NCBI GenBank assembly: GCA_027459645.1
Contig: DAIDHQ010000002.1
Span: 1-64,000, forward strand
Direction of reading: 5' to 3'
Source: Vulcanimicrobiota bacterium
Lineage (GTDB): Bacteria > Vulcanimicrobiota > Vulcanimicrobiia > Vulcanimicrobiales > Vulcanimicrobiaceae
DNA length: 64,000 nucleotides
The notes under the pieces were generated by a model, which was not told where the DNA came from, made no database searches, and was given only the letters and a program-made list of their open reading frames with translations. Each line of letters begins with the position of its first letter. Positions within the stretch are counted from its first letter, which is position 1. The translations under genes were made by a program, and so were the position numbers. Below are positions 9,184 through 25,547 of this stretch, in pieces.

Positions 9184-9822
9184 ATGAAACGAACGATTCT
9201 CGCTCTCGCCCTCGCGGTGCTCGCCTCCACTGGGGTGGCGCCCGCCCGGGCGCCACAAGAGCATGTGGTCCTTGCCGGCGGCTGCTTCTGGGGGATGCAG
9301 GCGGTTTTTGAGTCCCTCAAAGGCGTAACCAGTGTCGTCGCCGGCTTTAGCGGCGGCAGTGCTTCAACCGCGCACTACGAGATCGTGAGTACCGGCACGA
9401 CGGGCCACGCCGAATCGGTCGACGTGACTTTCGATCCGTCGAAGATTTCTTTCGCGCAGATTCTCGACGTCTATTTCCTGGTCGCCCACGATCCGACCGA
9501 ACTCAACCGCCAAGGACCCGACGTCGGCACGCAGTACCGCTCCGAGATCTTTTATACGACTTCAGCACAGCGCGCGCAGGCGCAGGCGACGATCGCTTCA
9601 CTGACTCGCAAGCACGCGTTCGCGGCGCCGATCGTCACGAAGCTGGCGCCGCTCCAGGGCTTCTACCGCGCCGAAGCCTACCATCAGAACTTCCTCGTCC
9701 ACAACCCCGACGCACCCTACATCGTTTACAACGATCTTCCGAAGCTGCGCGCGCTCAAAGCTAAATACCCGCAGCTGGTACGCGCGGATTCGGCTCCGAT
9801 GCGGGTGCTTGCGAAGAGCTAA
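9184..9822 (+). CDS. msrA: Peptide-methionine (S)-S-oxide reductase, exported form
   Basis: MsrA repairs oxidised methionine in proteins, reducing the S-sulfoxide with the help of thioredoxin-like donors. The catalytic motif GGCFWGMQ is present with the nucleophile Cys34, and PTELNRQGPDVGTQYRS and AYHQNF, typical of the family, follow. The first ~22 residues are a Sec signal (LALALAVLASTGVAPARA), so this copy probably works in the periplasm; no MsrB domain is fused. The 212-residue length fits a secreted MsrA. It converges with the SDR gene (gap of 3 bases). Confidence 0.95.
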   Translation: MKRTILALALAVLASTGVAPARAPQEHVVLAGGCFWGMQAVFESLKGVTSVVAGFSGGSASTAHYEIVSTGTTGHAESVDVTFDPSKISFAQILDVYFLVAHDPTELNRQGPDVGTQYRSEIFYTTSAQRAQAQATIASLTRKHAFAAPIVTKLAPLQGFYRAEAYHQNFLVHNPDAPYIVYNDLPKLRALKAKYPQLVRADSAPMRVLAKS

Positions 9823-13011: not shown

Positions 13012-13938
13012 GTGGTCGTGCGCAAAATCGTTCCACTGGTACTCCTGCTCTTGCTCGCCGTTCTCGTCGGCTGGTTCCTCCTCCGGCCCGTGCGCCATCG
13101 GCAAACGCACCCCGTGGCGATCGCGACCGAAGCGCCTCTCTCGACGGCGACGCCGCTGCCGCAGGCCACCGCAACCGCGCCGCCTACCCTCGTGCCGACG
13201 CCCGAGCATTCCGCTACCCCGCGCCCAACCGCGACGCCCACTTTTGCGCCGCTCCCGCCACGCGCCGGCAACGTCAAAACGCCCAAACTCGCGCTGATCA
13301 TCGACGACTGCGGCCAATGGGTATCGGTCGAGCGCGGCTTTATCGCGTTGCCGATTCCTCTTACGCTCTCGGTGCTTCCCGACGTGCATGCCACGCGCGA
13401 AATCGCAAGCGAAGCCGCGAACGCCGGCAAGGGCGTGATGCTGCATCTTCCGATGGACACGATTTCCGGACTCAATCCCGGGCCGGGCAAAGTCACGACC
13501 AAGATGACCGACGCCGAAATCAAAGCACAGGTCGTGGCCGACCTCGCGCAAGTTCCGCAAGCAAAGGGCGTCAACAATCATGAAGGCAGCAAAGGTACCG
13601 CAAGCCGCCGCGTCATGACGGACGTTGCGGACGTGCTGGTGCAGCACGGCGGCCTCTTCTTCATCGATTCCAAGACGACGGCGGCATCGGTGGCCGAAGA
13701 CGTCGCGCATCAGGCGGGCCTGCCGACCGCATCTCGCGACGTGTTTCTCGACAACAAAGACGAGGTTGCCTATACCGAAGGGCAGTTGCGGCAGGCGGCG
13801 GAGATCGCCCTCAAGACCGGCAGCGCGATCGCCATCGGACACCCGCGCGCCACGACGCTCGCCGCCGTTAAGGCGATGATCCCGCAGTTTGAAGCGCAAG
13901 GAATTACGTTCGTCCTCGCGCAGCAGTTGACGCGCTAG
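13012..13938 (+). CDS. Divergent polysaccharide deacetylase-fold protein (YibQ/DUF610)
   Basis: An N-terminal membrane anchor (IVPLVLLLLLAVLVGWFLL) is followed by a Pro/Thr-rich spacer (residues ~40-85) and then a YibQ-type domain with LALIIDDCGQ, MLHLPMD, GVNNHEGSKGT and FFIDSKTTAAS. The family adopts the NodB-like (polysaccharide deacetylase) fold and often lies near the peptidoglycan amidase activator EnvC; its activity is not settled. The acidic IIDD and the NNHEGS His match the metal-site positions. The likely start is GTG at 13012 or 13018. It overlaps the convergent HxlR gene by four bases. Confidence 0.87.
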   Translation: MVVRKIVPLVLLLLLAVLVGWFLLRPVRHRQTHPVAIATEAPLSTATPLPQATATAPPTLVPTPEHSATPRPTATPTFAPLPPRAGNVKTPKLALIIDDCGQWVSVERGFIALPIPLTLSVLPDVHATREIASEAANAGKGVMLHLPMDTISGLNPGPGKVTTKMTDAEIKAQVVADLAQVPQAKGVNNHEGSKGTASRRVMTDVADVLVQHGGLFFIDSKTTAASVAEDVAHQAGLPTASRDVFLDNKDEVAYTEGQLRQAAEIALKTGSAIAIGHPRATTLAAVKAMIPQFEAQGITFVLAQQLTR

Positions 13939-14382: not shown

Positions 14383-15756
14383 CTACGGCTTCGTGGAAGC
14401 CGCGGGATAGATCACGTGGGGCGTGATGAGGAACACGATCTCGTCACGCTCGTGGTGTTTCTGCCTGTTTTGGAAGAACTTGCCGAGGATCGGGATCTGC
14501 GCGAGGCCGGGTACCTTGGTGATCGTTTCGTTGTCCACGTCCCGCATCAAACCGCCCAAGACAATGGTCTGTGAATCCGCGACCCGCAAGGTACTGTCGA
14601 TCTTACGGTTGGCGATGATCGGGTAGCCGTTGTCGGCAATCCCCAGCAACTCGCTGTATTCCGGGTGGAGGTCGGCGGTGACGACTCCGTCCGGGCCGAT
14701 CGTCGGCGTGAGCCGTAGTTTCACGCCGATGTCCACGAATTGAACGTTCTGCCCGCCGAGCACCGACGTGTTATAGACCACCGGATACGTTTGACCAATC
14801 AGCAGATCGGCTTCCTTATTATTGAGCGTGACGAGCTTGGGCGTCGCGAGAATCTGCGCTCGGCCGGTCTGCATCAGGCTGTTGAGTCGCACGTTGACGG
14901 GTATTGAACCGCGCGTGAACGCGTAGGTCGTCGAACCGTTCGTCGGATGCCCTTGTAGATCGCTTCCGCCCCATTCGAAGCCAACGTTACTATCGCTCGT
15001 GTCGGGCGTGACATCGGCCACCTTCACTTCGAACATCACCTGCGGACTCGCGCGATCGATCGTTTCAAAAAGCCGTTCGGCCGTCCGTTGAACCGCATCG
15101 CCTCCGTCCACGATTACCGCGTTGTGAGCCTCGTCGGGCACGAACGTTCCCCCTGAAGCGAGGATCTTCAACGCTTTGATCGCGTCGTCCACGCGCACGT
15201 AGCGCAACCGGTAGGCGCGCGCGGCGGAGGTTGCGGCGCTCCGCGCGCCGTCGAGCGCCTGCACGAGGAATCGCGCCCGAAGCACGGTGTCGCGCGTTCC
15301 GGTGATCACGATTGCCCGCGTGCGCTTATCCGCAACAATGACGGTGCCTTCGGGAAGAGCGGGCGTCAGTTCTTTTGCGACATCGTCGGGAACGGCATGA
15401 ACTAACGACAGTACCGCGGTCTGGGCGCCAAGTTGCGAGTTGGGCAGGTCGTACCGGCGGTTCATCGACTGCGCGTCACCGACGATCAGCACGCTTCCCT
15501 CGCGACGCACCTGCAGACCGTGCGCGCTTACCAAGACCGTAAGGGCGTTTTCGAACGTCACGTTGCGCAGATGCAGGCTGATCCGTTCGGGCTTGAGGCT
15601 GGAATCGGGCACGATGTTCGCGCCCGCCTCCGCACCCAGGAGTGCGAGAACGTCGGCAAGATTGGCATCCTGCACGTCGATCGTAATTAATCCCGCTCCA
15701 TGCACCGCCGTCGTTAAAGCAAATGCGAGCAACGCGGCAAGCGCAAACGCTTTCAC
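14383..15756 (-). CDS. pilQ: Secretin (PilQ/GspD-like) of the type IV pilus system
   Basis: Secretins form the outer-membrane ring through which pili or type II substrates pass. The 457-residue protein has a Sec signal (FALAALLAFALTTAVHGA), an N0/STN-like domain (residues ~25-75), an N1-type domain with LRYVRVDDAIKALK, and the secretin core (residues ~240-450) with QILATPKLVTLNNKEA, the VYNTSVLGGQNVQFVDIGV lip region and VVLGGLMRD. The end LITPHVIYP is typical. It is short compared with proteobacterial PilQ because AMIN domains are missing. Its start overlaps the PilP-like gene by four bases; it is the last gene of the operon. Confidence 0.93.
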   Translation of the reverse strand: MKAFALAALLAFALTTAVHGAGLITIDVQDANLADVLALLGAEAGANIVPDSSLKPERISLHLRNVTFENALTVLVSAHGLQVRREGSVLIVGDAQSMNRRYDLPNSQLGAQTAVLSLVHAVPDDVAKELTPALPEGTVIVADKRTRAIVITGTRDTVLRARFLVQALDGARSAATSAARAYRLRYVRVDDAIKALKILASGGTFVPDEAHNAVIVDGGDAVQRTAERLFETIDRASPQVMFEVKVADVTPDTSDSNVGFEWGGSDLQGHPTNGSTTYAFTRGSIPVNVRLNSLMQTGRAQILATPKLVTLNNKEADLLIGQTYPVVYNTSVLGGQNVQFVDIGVKLRLTPTIGPDGVVTADLHPEYSELLGIADNGYPIIANRKIDSTLRVADSQTIVLGGLMRDVDNETITKVPGLAQIPILGKFFQNRQKHHERDEIVFLITPHVIYPAASTKP

Positions 15757-16193
15757 GGCCGGAGTTCCTTTTCGACCGTCAACCGCGTGCCGTCGCCAAG
15801 GATGATGCCGAGCGCGTCGATCGCCACGATGCGTTGCGTGCCGACCGCATCGCCGATCGCAAGTACGCGCACCTCACCTTTTCTCTCGACGAGCGCGCGT
15901 GGATCGTCGCCGACCACGACGGCACGAATCACTACCGCGCCGCCCGCCGCACGACCGAAAGCGGCGTCGGACACCAGGGGCACGAACGGATCGCGCTCGA
16001 CGTTGATCTGCGGAAATGGAATTCCGTCGGAAGGCGCAGAAACCGTTACCTGACCAGCGTCGGGCAGCGGATGCGCGTGCGCTACGACCCACCGCGGCGG
16101 AAACGTCAAAGGCAAGACCGCAAGCGCGCCGGCGATCAACATACCGGCGGTCGTCAAGAGCATCTTTCGCTCGTCATCGAAGAGTGCGTACAC
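15753..16193 (-). CDS. PilP-like inner-membrane pilus protein
   Basis: The 146-residue product has one N-terminal membrane helix (LLTTAGMLIAGALAVLPL) and a small C-terminal beta domain reading RDPFVPLVS, VIRAVVVGDDPRALVE and VRVLAIGDAVG. This resembles the HR domain of PilP/GspC, which contacts the secretin periplasmic domains. The match is weak at sequence level, but the position between PilO and the secretin is where PilP sits. It overlaps PilO by 20 bases and the secretin by four. Confidence 0.7.
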   Translation of the reverse strand: MYALFDDERKMLLTTAGMLIAGALAVLPLTFPPRWVVAHAHPLPDAGQVTVSAPSDGIPFPQINVERDPFVPLVSDAAFGRAAGGAVVIRAVVVGDDPRALVERKGEVRVLAIGDAVGTQRIVAIDALGIILGDGTRLTVEKELRP

Positions 16194-16761
16194 GATCGGA
16201 AACCTCAGCTAACGGCAAAGCATACAGCGTGGCATGGACGGTGGCGCTAAGCACCGGCGCACGAGGTCGCGGGAGCGCCGTTTGCAGCGACGCATCGTCG
16301 ATGCCCACGAGGACGTCGTGCTTCGGAAGATCCGCGAGCAACGCGACGATGCTCCGGAACGGGCCTCGCACCGCAAGCGTGACGCTCCTCCCGACGAGGG
16401 GTCCCGCCTGCTTCGCTTGCGGCGCATTCCCCGGCGTGAATGCTTCGATGCTCACGTGCAAACCGCGTGACTCTGCGTCGAGCAACTGCAGCAATGCGCC
16501 ATCCGCCGTTCCCTCGGCGCCTCCGCCGGCGAGGCGGTGCAGATCGGCGCGAACGCGCGCTTTGGCCGCGCGCAATTCGCGTGCGCGATGGAGTTTCACC
16601 GCTATGGCGGCAGTTTGGTCGAGCGATTCCTCGGTGTGCGCGCGGAGTTCAGCGATGCGGCGCGACGCGGGCCACCACGTCATGATCCCGCCGCCGACGA
16701 AGAACACGAGCGCAGCAAAGAGCCATGCCATGCGCGTTTGCGCAGCTTTGTCGAGGCTCAC
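16174..16761 (-). CDS. pilO: PilO-like pilus alignment protein
   Basis: One N-terminal membrane helix (AWLFAALVFFVGGGIMTWW) is followed by a coiled-coil segment (RIAELRAHTEESLDQTA) and a ferredoxin-like periplasmic domain with FRSIVALLADLPKHDVLVGI, as in PilO. PilO pairs with PilN below the secretin. The GTG at 16761 overlaps the PilN stop (GTGA), which gives a 195-residue protein; the frame is open further upstream but would duplicate PilN coding sequence. Confidence 0.8.
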   Translation of the reverse strand: MSLDKAAQTRMAWLFAALVFFVGGGIMTWWPASRRIAELRAHTEESLDQTAAIAVKLHRARELRAAKARVRADLHRLAGGGAEGTADGALLQLLDAESRGLHVSIEAFTPGNAPQAKQAGPLVGRSVTLAVRGPFRSIVALLADLPKHDVLVGIDDASLQTALPRPRAPVLSATVHATLYALPLAEVSDRVRTLR

Positions 16762-17312
16762 GGCGCGCGCTCCGGTACCTGCAGTGCGAAATCCACGATA
16801 TTCGCGCGAGCGTGCGGATCGCGAACGACGCGCAGAAGCAGCGGCGGCCGCGACGGTCGCTGTGCGCGCAGCTCCGCAATTGCCGCGGCGACCGGCACGA
16901 TCGTGCGCGCACGCCCGTCGATCTGCACGCCATTTGCATCCCGTGAGAGTGACGTGAGCCACGCACCCTCCGGCAAACGATTGGCAATTGCGGCGAACCG
17001 CGCCGCGAGTTTGGAGCCGGACAAACGAACCTCGCGCAAGCGGCGATCGAGTGCGAGCAAACGATCGACGTCGGTGCGCGCAAGCGCGGTGGCTTTCCAT
17101 GCGGCGCGCGCATCGTTCAAGCGTTCCGTCGCAATCGCGTCTTGACGCATCGCGACGCCAACCCAATGACGTTCGAGTGTCGCCCACGCACCGACCACGA
17201 GAATCGCCGTTAGGACTGCGCTCAACGGCACGTGTAGATGGGCGGGCACGCGCGCGCCGCGCAGGCGTTCCAGAGCGTGCGGTGGCGCATCGTTGAGAAA
17301 ATCGAATCGCAT
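16758..17312 (-). CDS. pilN: PilN-like pilus assembly protein
   Basis: The start MRFDFLND matches the short cytoplasmic PilN leader (I/F-N-L-L-P type) that docks in PilM. A membrane helix (VPLSAVLTAILVVGAWATL) follows, then a coiled coil and a periplasmic domain with LPEGAWLTSLSRDANGVQI, typical of the fimbrial assembly PilN family. The ATG at 17312 overlaps the PilM stop (TGATG). The C-terminal VDFALQVPERAP ends directly at the PilO start. Confidence 0.85.
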   Translation of the reverse strand: MRFDFLNDAPPHALERLRGARVPAHLHVPLSAVLTAILVVGAWATLERHWVGVAMRQDAIATERLNDARAAWKATALARTDVDRLLALDRRLREVRLSGSKLAARFAAIANRLPEGAWLTSLSRDANGVQIDGRARTIVPVAAAIAELRAQRPSRPPLLLRVVRDPHARANIVDFALQVPERAP

Positions 17313-18256
17313 CACCGGGCGATGCTCCACGTCGCAAGTGCCGCTGCAAGCGTCCAATCCGGGGCCGCCCGGCGCACCACGTCGTCGGGGTAGCTGCCCG
17401 ATTCCAAGAGCGGCGGGACGCCGACGAGCGCATGCGCGCCGCTCGCGTTTTCGATATCCTCTGCGATGCCCGGCAGCCGCGCACCGTTTCCAACCAGGGC
17501 GATGCGCGCGATCGCTTCACGCTCGCGGGCGATTTCGATCGCGGTCACCAACGCTTGCACGAGGATCGCGCGGGGCGCCGTGCCGGTACCCGCCGTCCCG
17601 AGGATGCGCTTACGCCGTTCCGCCGTTGCCTCGTCGATACCTAAGGCGCCCGCGATGGCTTGCGTTACGCACGCACCGCCTCGCTCGATCTCGAAGGACG
17701 CATGGCTGCGACCGCACAGGTGCAACGTCGAGCGGTCGGATCCGATGTCGAGGATGGCGTCGGCGAAATCGATCACCCGCCGTAACGCCCATCCGTCCCA
17801 GTCGATTGCAATGACGCGCAGACGCGCCGAACGCAAGTGCCTCAGCGCACGCGTGAGCGCAGGCCCCAGCGCGATGCCGACGGCGTACGTTCCGGCCTCG
17901 CGGTCGCACGGGTGCACGCGAACGGTTCGCGCTTCCTCGCCTTCCGATGGCGTTGTCGCTCGATTCGCCTCGAAACGTGAAGCGCGAATGCGTTCGCCCC
18001 AGGTCATCTTCGGGAACGCGACGACACGCAGCGACGCATCCCGCGCCCCGAGCGATGCGATGCAGCGGCGTTCTCGCACCGCGAGTTCGTCTCGCATTTC
18101 ATCCACGAGCGCGCCGAAGATCGCCGGATCGTCCGAACACGCGGAGGGGAGATCGCGCGCGGCGACGGCCTTCAGGCGCACCTCGCCCGAGGCGTCGGCC
18201 TCGCACGCGGCGATGCGTATGCGCGTTGCGCCCATGTCGATGCCGAGCGGAAGCAT
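17312..18256 (-). CDS. pilM: PilM-like actin-fold pilus assembly ATPase
   Basis: PilM is a cytoplasmic actin-like protein that binds nucleotide and the PilN N-terminus. The phosphate-1 loop LGIDMGATRIRIAA, the later ILDIGSDRSTLHL and the adenosine motif IALVGNGARLPGI are present. The ATG at 18256 is chosen; the longer open frame crosses into the peptidase gene. The peptidase ends 11 bases upstream. Confidence 0.85.
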   Translation of the reverse strand: MLPLGIDMGATRIRIAACEADASGEVRLKAVAARDLPSACSDDPAIFGALVDEMRDELAVRERRCIASLGARDASLRVVAFPKMTWGERIRASRFEANRATTPSEGEEARTVRVHPCDREAGTYAVGIALGPALTRALRHLRSARLRVIAIDWDGWALRRVIDFADAILDIGSDRSTLHLCGRSHASFEIERGGACVTQAIAGALGIDEATAERRKRILGTAGTGTAPRAILVQALVTAIEIAREREAIARIALVGNGARLPGIAEDIENASGAHALVGVPPLLESGSYPDDVVRRAAPDWTLAAALATWSIAR

Positions 18257-18267
18257 GCGATACCGCC

Positions 18268-18855
18268 TCACGGCCGGCCCAATCCGACGCCGAGCGCCGC
18301 GAGGGCAATAAACGGCGCGAAGGGAACCGCCCGCGATCGCTCCAGGTATTTGAGCGCGAGCAACGGCACATACACGAGAGCACCCGCAACAAACGCCGCA
18401 CCCAGAACGGCAAGGGCGGCGCTCCCGCCTGCCGACGCACCCGCCAGCGCGAAGAGTTTCACGTCGCCAAACGCGAGGCCGCGACGCCTCGAAATACCAT
18501 GAATTGCGAAGGAAACACTCGCCCCGATGAGCGCGCCTTCGGCCGTGAAAACCGCGGTGCCCCCGGCAAGTGCTTGGATAGCCACGAAGGCACCCGCCAC
18601 GAACGCGACGACGTCGTAGACATATCCGCTCGCGATGTCGGTCGCGGCGGAAACCGTCAATGCGGCAATCGCGACGACCGCCGATGCATTCAACGCCGAT
18701 CCAAAAAGCACGATCGCGGTTAGCGCCGTTGTGCAAAAGACGCACGTGAGTTTCCAATCGAAGCGATCGCCGCACCGCGCGGCGCGACGCGCCGCGAGCA
18801 AGGTAAACGTCAGGGCGGCCCCGGCAAAGGTTGCGGGACTTGTCAGAGCGTGCAT
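18268..18855 (-). CDS. pilD: Type IV prepilin peptidase (A24), lacking the methylase domain
   Basis: This multi-helix membrane aspartate protease cleaves the short leader of prepilins. The two catalytic aspartates are visible in SAATDIASGY and in the FGDVKLFALAG motif. The N-terminal zinc/methyltransferase domain of PilD (CxxC pairs) is absent, leaving 195 residues, so N-methylation of pilins may be done elsewhere or not at all. The ATG at 18855 overlaps the stop of the TPR gene (TAATG). Confidence 0.87.
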   Translation of the reverse strand: MHALTSPATFAGAALTFTLLAARRAARCGDRFDWKLTCVFCTTALTAIVLFGSALNASAVVAIAALTVSAATDIASGYVYDVVAFVAGAFVAIQALAGGTAVFTAEGALIGASVSFAIHGISRRRGLAFGDVKLFALAGASAGGSAALAVLGAAFVAGALVYVPLLALKYLERSRAVPFAPFIALAALGVGLGRP

Positions 18856-19373
18856 TATCGGCGTAGCGCCACTCGAGCCGGCGCGAAGGAGGGATCGAAA
18901 GCGAGCGCCGCCTTCAGCAGCAGCCGCGAGCGCCCGATGCGTGAGAGCCGCCGCTCGTCGAGTGCTGCGAACATCATCGCCGACGGGTCGCGGCGCGCAC
19001 GTGCCGCACCTTCGAAGTCGCGCGCGGCTGCCGCTAAGCGCCCGAGGCGCTGTTCGCACAGCGCACGGTCCATGCGCAATGCCGAATCGTTCGGATGGCG
19101 CGAGAGGTAGTCGGTGGCGACATCAACGCCCTCGCGCAGGAGCGTCGCTTCGTGCGACATCATGGCCGCGAACACCAATCGGTCTGCCGCCGTACCGTTG
19201 TCGCGATCGAACCACAGCGCGCGCTCGTACATCAGGCGCGCGCGCGGCGTCGATCCCCAATAGGCGAGCGCATCGCCGCGCGTGACGAGCGCCGAAGAGA
19301 GCTGCGCGTGCAGGACGACTGCCGACGCACTTAATGCCGCCGCTATTAGCACCGCTCGCCGGTACCCGTTCAT
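18855..19373 (-). CDS. Exported TPR-like protein in the pilus operon
   Basis: An N-terminal hydrophobic helix (AVLIAAALSASAVVLHAQL) is followed by tetratricopeptide-like helical pairs (ALAYWGSTPRARLMYERAL, SALRMDRALCEQRLGRLA, and a last one ending LAFDPSFAPARVALRR). It may play the role of the pilotin/TPR factor (PilF/TgpA-like) for the secretin; this is inferred from the operon only. It overlaps both neighbours (four bases with the CcdA-like gene, one with the peptidase). Confidence 0.7.
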   Translation of the reverse strand: MNGYRRAVLIAAALSASAVVLHAQLSSALVTRGDALAYWGSTPRARLMYERALWFDRDNGTAADRLVFAAMMSHEATLLREGVDVATDYLSRHPNDSALRMDRALCEQRLGRLAAAARDFEGAARARRDPSAMMFAALDERRLSRIGRSRLLLKAALAFDPSFAPARVALRR

Positions 19374-19957
19374 GCCAACAGCCCGTAGTAGGCACCGAGC
19401 GCGAGGGTCACGCCCGCGCTCACCGTCCCGGCCGCCCGCGAATCGGGGAGCGAAACGCGCACCGGAAGCAGCAACAGTCCGAGCGGAGCGAGATGTCCGG
19501 CCGCAAAAGCTGCGGCCAGCAGCGCGGCGGATACGTGCGAACCCGAAACAAAGAGTGCCCCGAACGCAAGTACCGCGGGCGTGCAGCAGGGCGACACCAC
19601 GAGGGCGGAACTCATGCCGAGTAACGCGATGCCTCCGAGCGAACGCGGGACCGTTGCATGCGTGCAGCAGATATCGTCGCGCATCAGCGTCGCTATCGCC
19701 GAAACGGCCAGCACCACCGCCATCACGGCGTAGAGCATCGGCGAATGGCGCACGATCGCGGATACCGCGCCGCCGGTTGCAGCAAGCGCGGCATAGCCGG
19801 CCACCGTGCCGGCCGTGAAGGATGCGAGCACCGGCATGCGCGTTCGAATGTTTCCGCGTGCAAAGGCGGCAAGCGCGAGATACCGCGGCGCAACGCAGGG
19901 TCCGATGCTACTTGCCGCGCCGGCGGCGCACGCGAGCGCGAGCGCAACAAACGTCAT
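19370..19957 (-). CDS. CcdA/DsbD-like thiol-redox membrane protein
   Basis: The 195-residue protein has about six membrane helices and two CcdA-type motifs with Pro after Cys: SSIGPCVAPRY early and SPCCTPAVLAFGALF in the second half, with an extra DDICCTHA loop. CcdA/DsbD proteins pass electrons from cytoplasmic thioredoxin to periplasmic thiol partners. Its position between prepilin and TPR gene, with 1- and 4-base overlaps, suggests it controls disulfide state of pilus parts; the pilin next door has exactly two cysteines in its mature chain. The true start is the ATG at 19957. Confidence 0.75.
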   Translation of the reverse strand: MTFVALALACAAGAASSIGPCVAPRYLALAAFARGNIRTRMPVLASFTAGTVAGYAALAATGGAVSAIVRHSPMLYAVMAVVLAVSAIATLMRDDICCTHATVPRSLGGIALLGMSSALVVSPCCTPAVLAFGALFVSGSHVSAALLAAAFAAGHLAPLGLLLLPVRVSLPDSRAAGTVSAGVTLALGAYYGLLA

Positions 19958-20424
19958 TAGAACGCCGTAAATCCCGACGTGGAATCGTATTGAATGCTGC
20001 TCTTCGCGCTCGTTCCGCCGATCGCCGTCATCGTATTGGGATCGTGCTGACCGGGGCACTGAATCGTGTACGTGGCGTTCCCGGATGACGGATTGGCAAT
20101 CGAATACTTGTAGGTACCCGACGGCGCGACGGGATCGACCGGCGTCTGCCGCAGATACGAGCCGATGTTGGCCTCTTGATTCGTCACGTCGGTCGGAGAG
20201 GTGACATTCGGATATTGCTGGTGATCCGTCTGATACAGCTCGAGCGCGGTCGCGATTTCCTTTAAATTCGCCTCGCACGCTGCCGTCTGTGCTTGCGCGC
20301 GTGCGCGCATGAAATTCGGAACGAGAATTGCGACGAGAATAGCAATGATCGCGACGACGATCATCATCTCGATCAAGGTAAAGCCGCGTTCACCCTCACG
20401 CCTACGCTCGTGCACCTGTCGCAT
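19957..20424 (-). CDS. pilA: Type IV prepilin (major or minor pilin)
   Basis: The leader ends GERG and the mature chain begins FTLIEMMIVVAIIAILVAIL, with Glu5 conserved, which is diagnostic for class III signal peptides cleaved by the prepilin peptidase. The helix continues through FMRARAQAQTAACEANLKE, as in PulG-like and GspG-like proteins. The mature protein has two Cys (near residues 55 and 125 of the precursor), probably forming a disulfide. It is the first gene of the pilus operon; RBS-like AGGACGGGGGCG precedes the ATG. T2SS pseudopilin is an alternative reading. Confidence 0.92.
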   Translation of the reverse strand: MRQVHERRREGERGFTLIEMMIVVAIIAILVAILVPNFMRARAQAQTAACEANLKEIATALELYQTDHQQYPNVTSPTDVTNQEANIGSYLRQTPVDPVAPSGTYKYSIANPSSGNATYTIQCPGQHDPNTMTAIGGTSAKSSIQYDSTSGFTAF

Positions 20425-20490: not shown

Positions 20491-20886
20491 TCACTCGTGC
20501 CCGTGTCGCTGCCTGCGCCTCTTATCGACCTCTCGCAGGCCGCGCACGATTTCGCGCCGATCCGCCGTTTTTTCCAGCACGACGTCCGCACCGGCGCTGT
20601 GAAAGGCGCGGGCGATCGGATCGGTCGCGGAGCTCGAGTAGACGTAGATCTGCGCTTTCGGAACGAGCACGTGAGAGAGGCGTATCCCCTCCAGCGGCTC
20701 GTTCAGAAAGTCGGTATCGATGAAGACCAGGTCGGGCTGATCGTCGAGTAGCCGGCGCGGATCGAGCTCCGCGCCGACGTAATCGACGAACAGGCCTGCC
20801 TCCGAGAATACTTCGATGAGCGCGGGGACGAACAGGTGCTGTGGCTCGATGAGATGCACCACCGTCCGCCCCCCACCGTCGAACAT
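20491..20886 (-). CDS. Single-domain response regulator receiver protein
   Basis: About 130 residues with the receiver pattern: HLIEPQHLFVPALIEVF (acid pair reduced to Glu), phosphoacceptor Asp in DLVFIDTDF, a YVYSSSAT loop and Lys in ADVVLEKTADR. No output domain is present, so it may act by protein contact. GAGGGG precedes the ATG at 20886; an ATG at 20907 is also possible. It lies between the BY-kinase and the pilin gene, same strand, and may link polysaccharide and pilus control. Confidence 0.75.
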   Translation of the reverse strand: MFDGGGRTVVHLIEPQHLFVPALIEVFSEAGLFVDYVGAELDPRRLLDDQPDLVFIDTDFLNEPLEGIRLSHVLVPKAQIYVYSSSATDPIARAFHSAGADVVLEKTADRREIVRGLREVDKRRRQRHGHE

Positions 20887-20910
20887 GATCCCCTCGTATC
20901 CGTGCAAGCT

Positions 20911-25031: not shown

Positions 25032-25547
25032 ATGCTCTCATCGAAGCTCCGACGAGTCGCGCTCTCCGTTGCGGGCGGCGCCTTCGTCCTCCTCGTCGCG
25101 TTTGCGGTCCTCCATCATTTTCGCCACGTCACAGCCGTCGTCGCCGGTGACCGCGTACCGCCGCTCTCCATGACGAGCCTTTCCGGGCGCAGCGTTGTGC
25201 TCGAACCGCTCAAACGCGGCATCACCGTGTATAACGTCTTTACGACGTGGTGCCCGAGCTGCCGCGAAGAGACGCCTGCGTTTGCAAAGCTCGCGGACAA
25301 ACTTCGCCGCCGCGGCGTTCAATTCGTCGGCATCGACCAAGGCGAGCCGGCCGCACCGATCGCGGCCTTCGCGCTGCAATTCGGCATCAGCTATCCGATC
25401 GTCGTCGACAACGGGCACCTCTCGAATGCCGTACTCGGAGCACGTGTTATACCGAGGACGATCGTGGTAAAGGACGGGATTGTGAAAGCAATTGCCGTTG
25501 GCCCCCTAACACCGCACGCGCTCGAAGCGATGATCGGAACGGTATGA
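25032..25547 (+). CDS. TlpA-like membrane-anchored thioredoxin
   Basis: An N-terminal membrane helix (VALSVAGGAFVLLVAFAVL) anchors a periplasmic thioredoxin-fold domain with the redox motif TTWCPSCREE. The later cis-Pro loop ARVIPRTIVV is present. TlpA/ResA-type proteins reduce disulfides in exported proteins. The pair is unusual at the head of a glycosyltransferase operon: its stop overlaps the next start by four bases (ATGA). It may be reduced by the CcdA-like protein at 19370. Confidence 0.9.
   Translation: MLSSKLRRVALSVAGGAFVLLVAFAVLHHFRHVTAVVAGDRVPPLSMTSLSGRSVVLEPLKRGITVYNVFTTWCPSCREETPAFAKLADKLRRRGVQFVGIDQGEPAAPIAAFALQFGISYPIVVDNGHLSNAVLGARVIPRTIVVKDGIVKAIAVGPLTPHALEAMIGTV

Follow-up and report, generated by a model that had tools for sequence, protein, structure and literature searches.

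The DNA analysed here, which we call the window, is a stretch of 64,000 nucleotides from a Vulcanimicrobiota bacterium (contig DAIDHQ010000002.1; genome G000 in our set). A type IV pilus operon lies on its minus strand (Table 1). As a sequence-only reading of the window had noted, a CcdA-like gene and a TPR gene sit between those for the prepilin and the prepilin peptidase with overlaps of 1-4 bases; we find 1 base between prepilin and CcdA-like genes, 4 between CcdA-like and TPR genes, and 1 between TPR and peptidase genes. A prepilin leader, the GFTLxE sequence, a hydrophobic alpha-1 and the pilus-operon setting identify the first product as a type IV major pilin. Pfam scores are 3.1e-8 for N_methyl in the prepilin and 6.6e-7 for Peptidase_A24 in the peptidase, and the TPR protein matches TPR_9 at 3.5e-6, under the cut-off of that model. 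The PilM-like name is presumed from gene position and similarity; the small protein in the PilP position has zero Pfam matches. Between positions 13900 and 21100, a promoter scan returned no promoter-like sites and a terminator scan only candidates at the level of shuffled sequences.

Table 1. Genes of the pilus operon and a redoxin-like gene in the window
Feature	Positions	Strand	Evidence
Major type IV prepilin	19957..20424	minus	N_methyl and T2SSG matches
Pil-CcdA, CcdA-family membrane protein	19370..19957	minus	GPCVAPR and SPCCTP motifs; monophyletic pilus subfamily
TPR protein with hydrophobic N-terminal segment, encoded by the second of the two inserted genes	18855..19373	minus	TPR_9
Prepilin peptidase, A24 domain only	18268..18855	minus	Peptidase_A24
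PilM-like protein (314 aa), taken to start at MLPLGID	17312..18256	minus	Homologues at the equivalent position in relatives
PilN-like protein, taken to start at MRFDFLND	16758..17312	minus	PF05137, 4.9e-8
PilO-position protein	16174..16761	minus	Position conserved in relatives
Small protein in PilP position	15753..16193	minus	Position conserved
Secretin, PilQ type	14383..15756	minus	PF00263, 7.3e-45
TlpA/redoxin-like protein	25032..25547	plus	Redoxin, 1.4e-14

Directly upstream of the pilin gene lies a degenerate response-regulator-like gene (20491-20907) with no homologue in the flanks searched around relatives' loci. The window's peptidase is without the A24_N_bact domain, as is that of G078, a genome with no CcdA pair; one peptidase of family f3, from the same class, does have it. 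The methylase part may be elsewhere in the genome or absent. Neither the CcdA-like nor the TPR protein has a PADLOC match at E <= 0.01, and we rejected an anti-phage role for them on that ground.

Is the membrane protein a CcdA? Alone, this protein of 195 aa, with its motifs GPCVAP and SPCCTP, scores E 0.031 against DsbD_TM (PF02683), under the cut-off. Among the 45 members of the family alignment, 34 match DsbD_TM at E <= 0.1, the best at 2.8e-16. The profile of these 45 sequences matches the solved CcdA 5vkv at E 4.6e-16, the match running from profile position 7 to 202 and aligning both redox Cys, and CcdA 2n4x at 7e-4. The predicted structure (pLDDT 73) was too weak a model to serve as proof of the CcdA fold, six helices forming two inverted repeats: Foldseek placed 5vkv at rank 15 with E 2.9, and the comparison with VIA (Z 7.2, 180 aligned, rmsd 4.4) does not reach the level at which such values are trusted for helical proteins. 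Membership in the CcdA family is assigned from sequence homology, which spans the whole domain.

In the 45-row alignment, at a mean identity of 41%, P20, C21, R25, C124, C125 and P127 are invariant and H155, located in TM5, is nearly so. Redox Cys in TM1 and TM4, each within a PCxxP motif, are present in 53 of the 54 pilus-operon proteins (pil-CcdA), the exception being that of genome G057. The extra invariant Cys125 adjoins Cys124. The loop between TM3 and TM4, which its charge suggests is cytoplasmic, holds at least 2 Cys or His in 52/53 pil-CcdA (G057, having no CC motif, is left out) versus 3/11 ordinary CcdA and 2/16 f3 proteins; in nine of the 53 it has His and zero Cys. Pil-CcdA shares sequence family, length and one PCxxP motif per half with the CcdA/DsbD_TM proteins (PF02683; 5vkv, 2n4x). 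It differs from them in its pilus operon, TPR partner and low single-sequence score, and in what the alignments mark as its own traits: a vicinal second Cys, an Arg that follows the first motif, a TM5 His and the Cys/His loop. An ordinary, separate CcdA is also encoded in G000 and in 12/12 other genomes sampled. In a tree with ordinary CcdA from 11 of these 13 genomes, the pilus CcdA proteins form one clade (support 99), apart from the ordinary ones. The G057 protein (locus L098) has lost all redox Cys and has the longest branch, 4.42, with TPR protein and pilin kept; this copy reads as a natural catalytic mutant.

Searching 103 genomes of the order with the single CcdA protein gave 48 places in 47 genomes, the window among them. 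The pilin-CcdA-TPR order is present at 46 of the 47 other loci, and the 47th (L078, in G026) is a weak match without a pilin. After a profile search covering 149 genomes from the phylum, a pilin search and the addition of further loci, the order is found at 54 loci in 53 of the 103 genomes, window included. The TPR gene follows pil-CcdA at 54/54 loci and the peptidase gene comes next at 53/54, the remaining one being a contig end. At the 53 pilin-to-CcdA junctions measured, the two genes are never more than 9 bases apart, and at 31 they overlap by 1 or 4 bases; CcdA and TPR genes overlap by 1 or 4 bases at 38/51 loci. Each start was picked as the one nearest to the stop upstream, a choice that biases towards short gaps. 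Relatives with the operon are Eremiobacterota (Vulcanimicrobiota): among 16 loci, 15 are from Eremiobacterota and all 16 keep all four genes. Since the same order recurs at 54 loci, the arrangement is far beyond chance. Searches of open-access papers turned up no account of a pilus operon that contains a CcdA-TPR pair.

The mature window pilin starts at F15, after G14, and does have the two Cys that had been proposed for it and no others: Cys36 in helix alpha-1 and Cys109 in a CPGxH motif (mature numbering). Both are present at 54/54 loci with the pair (the second at 107-116 in relatives), as is the motif [YF]x[IV]xC[PA]GxH. In a 47-row alignment both are invariant, the Cys109 column being Cys in 47/47 pilins with the pair. 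The sequence-only reading had named unconserved pilin Cys and an unconserved operon order as findings that would count against it; run across these loci, both comparisons returned conservation. The operon of G090 (contig C1) includes the pair, with CcdA at 1625243-1625836 on the minus strand and the pilin at 1625899-1626396; this pilin carries Cys at 36, 113, 136 and 140. The pilin model reached pLDDT 83.6, with 1ay2 as its best Foldseek match (E 0.072).

What does the pilin look like where the pair is missing? A search of the 103 genomes with a cut-off of E <= 1e-22 found pilins of this type in 65. The pair is present in 53 of these and missing from 11; in the last one, G098, the contig stops beyond the pilin. 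At each of the 11 pair-less loci the peptidase gene comes directly after the pilin gene. CcdA and TPR genes come and go together, both at 54/54 loci and neither at 11/11. In those 11 pilins the Cys109 column holds Asp ten times, Ala once and Cys never. Eight of them, all of family f1, have also lost Cys36 and carry a different Cys pair close to the C-terminus; the three pilins of family f2 keep Cys36 alone. In family f3, 56 open frames gave 40 distinct pilins (three dropped as short or lacking the motif, the rest repeats), with Cys36 in 40/40, Asp at the Cys109 column in 40/40, and the peptidase directly after. Because the f3 pilins uniformly have Cys36 and Asp and 10/11 loci without the pair have Asp, the ancestral state was most simply Cys36 with Asp109, and the change from Asp to Cys would have come with the pair. 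In 34/40 f3 pilins there are 3 or 5 Cys without the pair in their operon; since f1 and f3 pilins carry other Cys pairs without it, a Cys pair as such needs no CcdA-TPR. We also considered the CPGxH motif as a metal or haem site gained with the pair and rejected this, His127 being equally conserved in the f3 pilins without Cys109 (40/40). At loci L157-L183, f3 genomes carry tandem arrays of similar major pilins.

To count the events, we built a tree of 64 operons, 53 carrying the pair and 11 lacking it, from secretin, PilM, PilN and peptidase; pilin and CcdA were excluded. On this tree a single change in pair presence suffices. Support is low (42) for the branch dividing the two states and 100 each for the pair-less f1 clade and the f2 clade; the median end branch is 0.39. 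Because the pair changes once, insertion and Asp-to-Cys replacement fall on one branch. The phylogeny is suggestive of a single coincident change followed by long joint retention, with no repeated gains. If the f1 group lost the pair rather than never having gained it, the co-variation stays and the polarity for f1 changes.

Relatives of pil-CcdA also lie outside the pilus operon. The pilus CcdA proteins group with CcdA proteins of the f3 genomes (support 86, three long rows left out), whose two redox sites both lack Cys (SPSSVPR, APDA) at 16/16 loci of 14 genomes. These proteins keep Arg25 and His155, the redox sites now being Ser and Asp. A TPR protein is next at 16/16 of these loci (L117-L132). 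The pair adjoins divergent glutaredoxin-like (14/16) and BolA-like (12/16) genes, putatively GrxD and BolA, and a SpoIIE-like gene in most. The pilus and f3 TPR families align over 168/174 columns, N-terminal segment included (hhalign 98.8%, E 4.9e-17, scores that TPR repeats inflate). The CcdA-TPR pair thus seems to predate its position in the pilus operon, and its redox site is dispensable in the f3 branch.

Why would a pilus operon carry a CcdA and a TPR protein? We see about an even chance that the two form a pilus-dedicated thiol-redox unit serving a Cys36-Cys109 staple in the pilin. We regard this as the best reading because Cys36 is the position of the disulfide reported for ComGC. From gene order, family membership, invariant Cys, their co-occurrence with the pair and the coincidence on one branch, we infer the following scheme. 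Using Cys21 and Cys124/125, pil-CcdA would move electrons across the inner membrane; the TPR protein, anchored in the membrane, would hold the client. That client would be the major pilin, in which Cys36 of alpha-1 would be bonded to Cys109 of the beta-sheet, a disulfide that would staple the pilin head to its stem as in ComGC. Like other CcdA proteins, pil-CcdA would most likely be reductive, undoing wrong or premature disulfides, intermolecular ones included.

The thiol control of the pilin suggested by the sequence-only reading is thereby upheld in part. Conservation of Cys and order speaks for it, as does the absence of Cys109 at 11/11 loci without the pair; the G057 pilin, which keeps Cys36 and Cys108 despite its Cys-less, fast-evolving CcdA, speaks against it. 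Also against the staple-serving unit, the f3 CcdA-TPR homologues lost their redox Cys at 16/16 loci, and no thioredoxin-fold partner is found among the operon genes searched. The same reading had offered the TlpA-like protein as periplasmic partner. Its gene is on the opposite strand at a distance of 4.6 kb and is unlinked in relatives: their loci have no TlpA match in the flanks, which reach about 4.4-5 kb upstream and do not fully match that distance, and in G060, of the same genus, the best homologue is on contig C46 and the pilus operon on C103. We rejected this partner as unlinked; with 12 matches to the redoxin family in G000, nothing marks this one as special either.

How does this arrangement compare with known systems? 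Oxidative Dsb systems are known to act on type IV pilins, and the BdbDC proteins are oxidative and belong to other families than CcdA. In B. subtilis, BdbD and BdbC are described as putting disulfides into ComGC (PMC8262900), in which modelling is reported to bring Cys36 and Cys76 close enough for a stabilising disulfide (PMC7212644). Both there and here, thiol-disulfide proteins would act on a type IV pilin with Cys36 at the same mature position; the systems differ in that BdbDC is not encoded between pilin and peptidase genes and the second Cys of ComGC is at 76, not about 109. A DsbA-type thioredoxin-fold protein with a membrane partner, as in BdbDC, was not among the operon genes searched. 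In cytochrome c maturation, a CcdA or DsbD reductant carrier is reported to work with a TPR protein, CcmI or NrfG, for the client apocytochrome c (PMC3601427, PMC12285233). That system likewise combines a CcdA-type carrier and a TPR protein for a Cys-bearing client, and differs in that the client here would be the pilin and the pilus operon has no haem genes. None of nine pilus TPR proteins matched the CcmH/CycH TPR model at E <= 0.01; one f3 TPR homologue reached 2.5e-8, below the curated cut-off. The closest published idea we found is that for Leptospirillum TFP12, a cytoplasmic thioredoxin-fold protein encoded beside pulO and proposed to aid appendage assembly (PMC7084401). A thiol-redox gene adjoins the prepilin peptidase gene in both cases; TFP12 is neither a CcdA nor a TPR protein and is from one organism.

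The pair could instead be a general extracytoplasmic reductant line, for example for cytochrome c, MsrA or TlpA proteins, placed in the operon for co-expression, with the change in pilin Cys a coincidence. CcdA is reported to serve cytochrome c (PMC3601427) and MsrAB (PMC9239216) elsewhere, and the related f3 pair sits outside the pilus operon beside glutaredoxin-like and BolA-like genes. The window itself encodes, at 9184-9822, an MsrA (PMSR 4.8e-56) whose N-terminus resembles a signal sequence and which might be an extracytoplasmic client of such a line. We nevertheless consider a general line unlikely: G000 and the 12 other sampled genomes already have an ordinary CcdA, and the pilus subfamily is monophyletic, lies beside the pilin gene at all 54 loci and is absent from operons whose pilin is without Cys109.

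Has pil-CcdA perhaps ceased to be mainly a thiol exchanger? It might handle a soft metal or act as a membrane scaffold for pilin and TPR protein. Its Cys/His-rich TM3-TM4 loop would suit this, and the nine His-only loops fit metal binding better than thiol exchange; the persistence of Arg25 and His155 in the f3 proteins, the gene retained in G057 without redox Cys and the extra Cys125 beside Cys124 point the same way. The invariance of Cys21, Cys124 and Cys125 at 41% mean identity and the co-occurrence of the pilin Cys with pil-CcdA make a metal or scaffold role distinctly improbable.

Two readings turn the chemistry round. DsbB was not found in 8/8 genomes, a DsbA-like Thioredoxin_4 protein is present in 2/8 and not in G000, and VKOR, in 18/21 genomes including G000, is not in G090 or G053; the pilin Cys pair is still invariant. 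It is a long shot that a CcdA-fold protein, captured by the pilus operon along with a TPR chaperone, evolved into a pilin-specific disulfide machine working in the oxidising direction in bacteria where DsbB was not found, the pilin's second Cys arising from Asp to use it and the module turning Cys-less for a new job in the sister family. Least probable of all is that pil-CcdA itself installs the Cys36-Cys109 disulfide, a role to which these gaps lend some support and against which stand the VKOR that makes an oxidase available in most genomes and the fact that, to our knowledge, no CcdA is known to work in the oxidising direction.

Within this phylum, Vulcanimicrobium alpinus WC8-2 is reported to be cultured, with type IV pili and phototactic gliding (PMC9758169). 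For the staple-serving unit, the comparison of loci with and without the pair is clean and unusual but reflects a single event, and is suggestive. If that reading is true, the CcdA-TPR pair fixed between the pilin and peptidase genes would be a pilus-dedicated reductase or isomerase.
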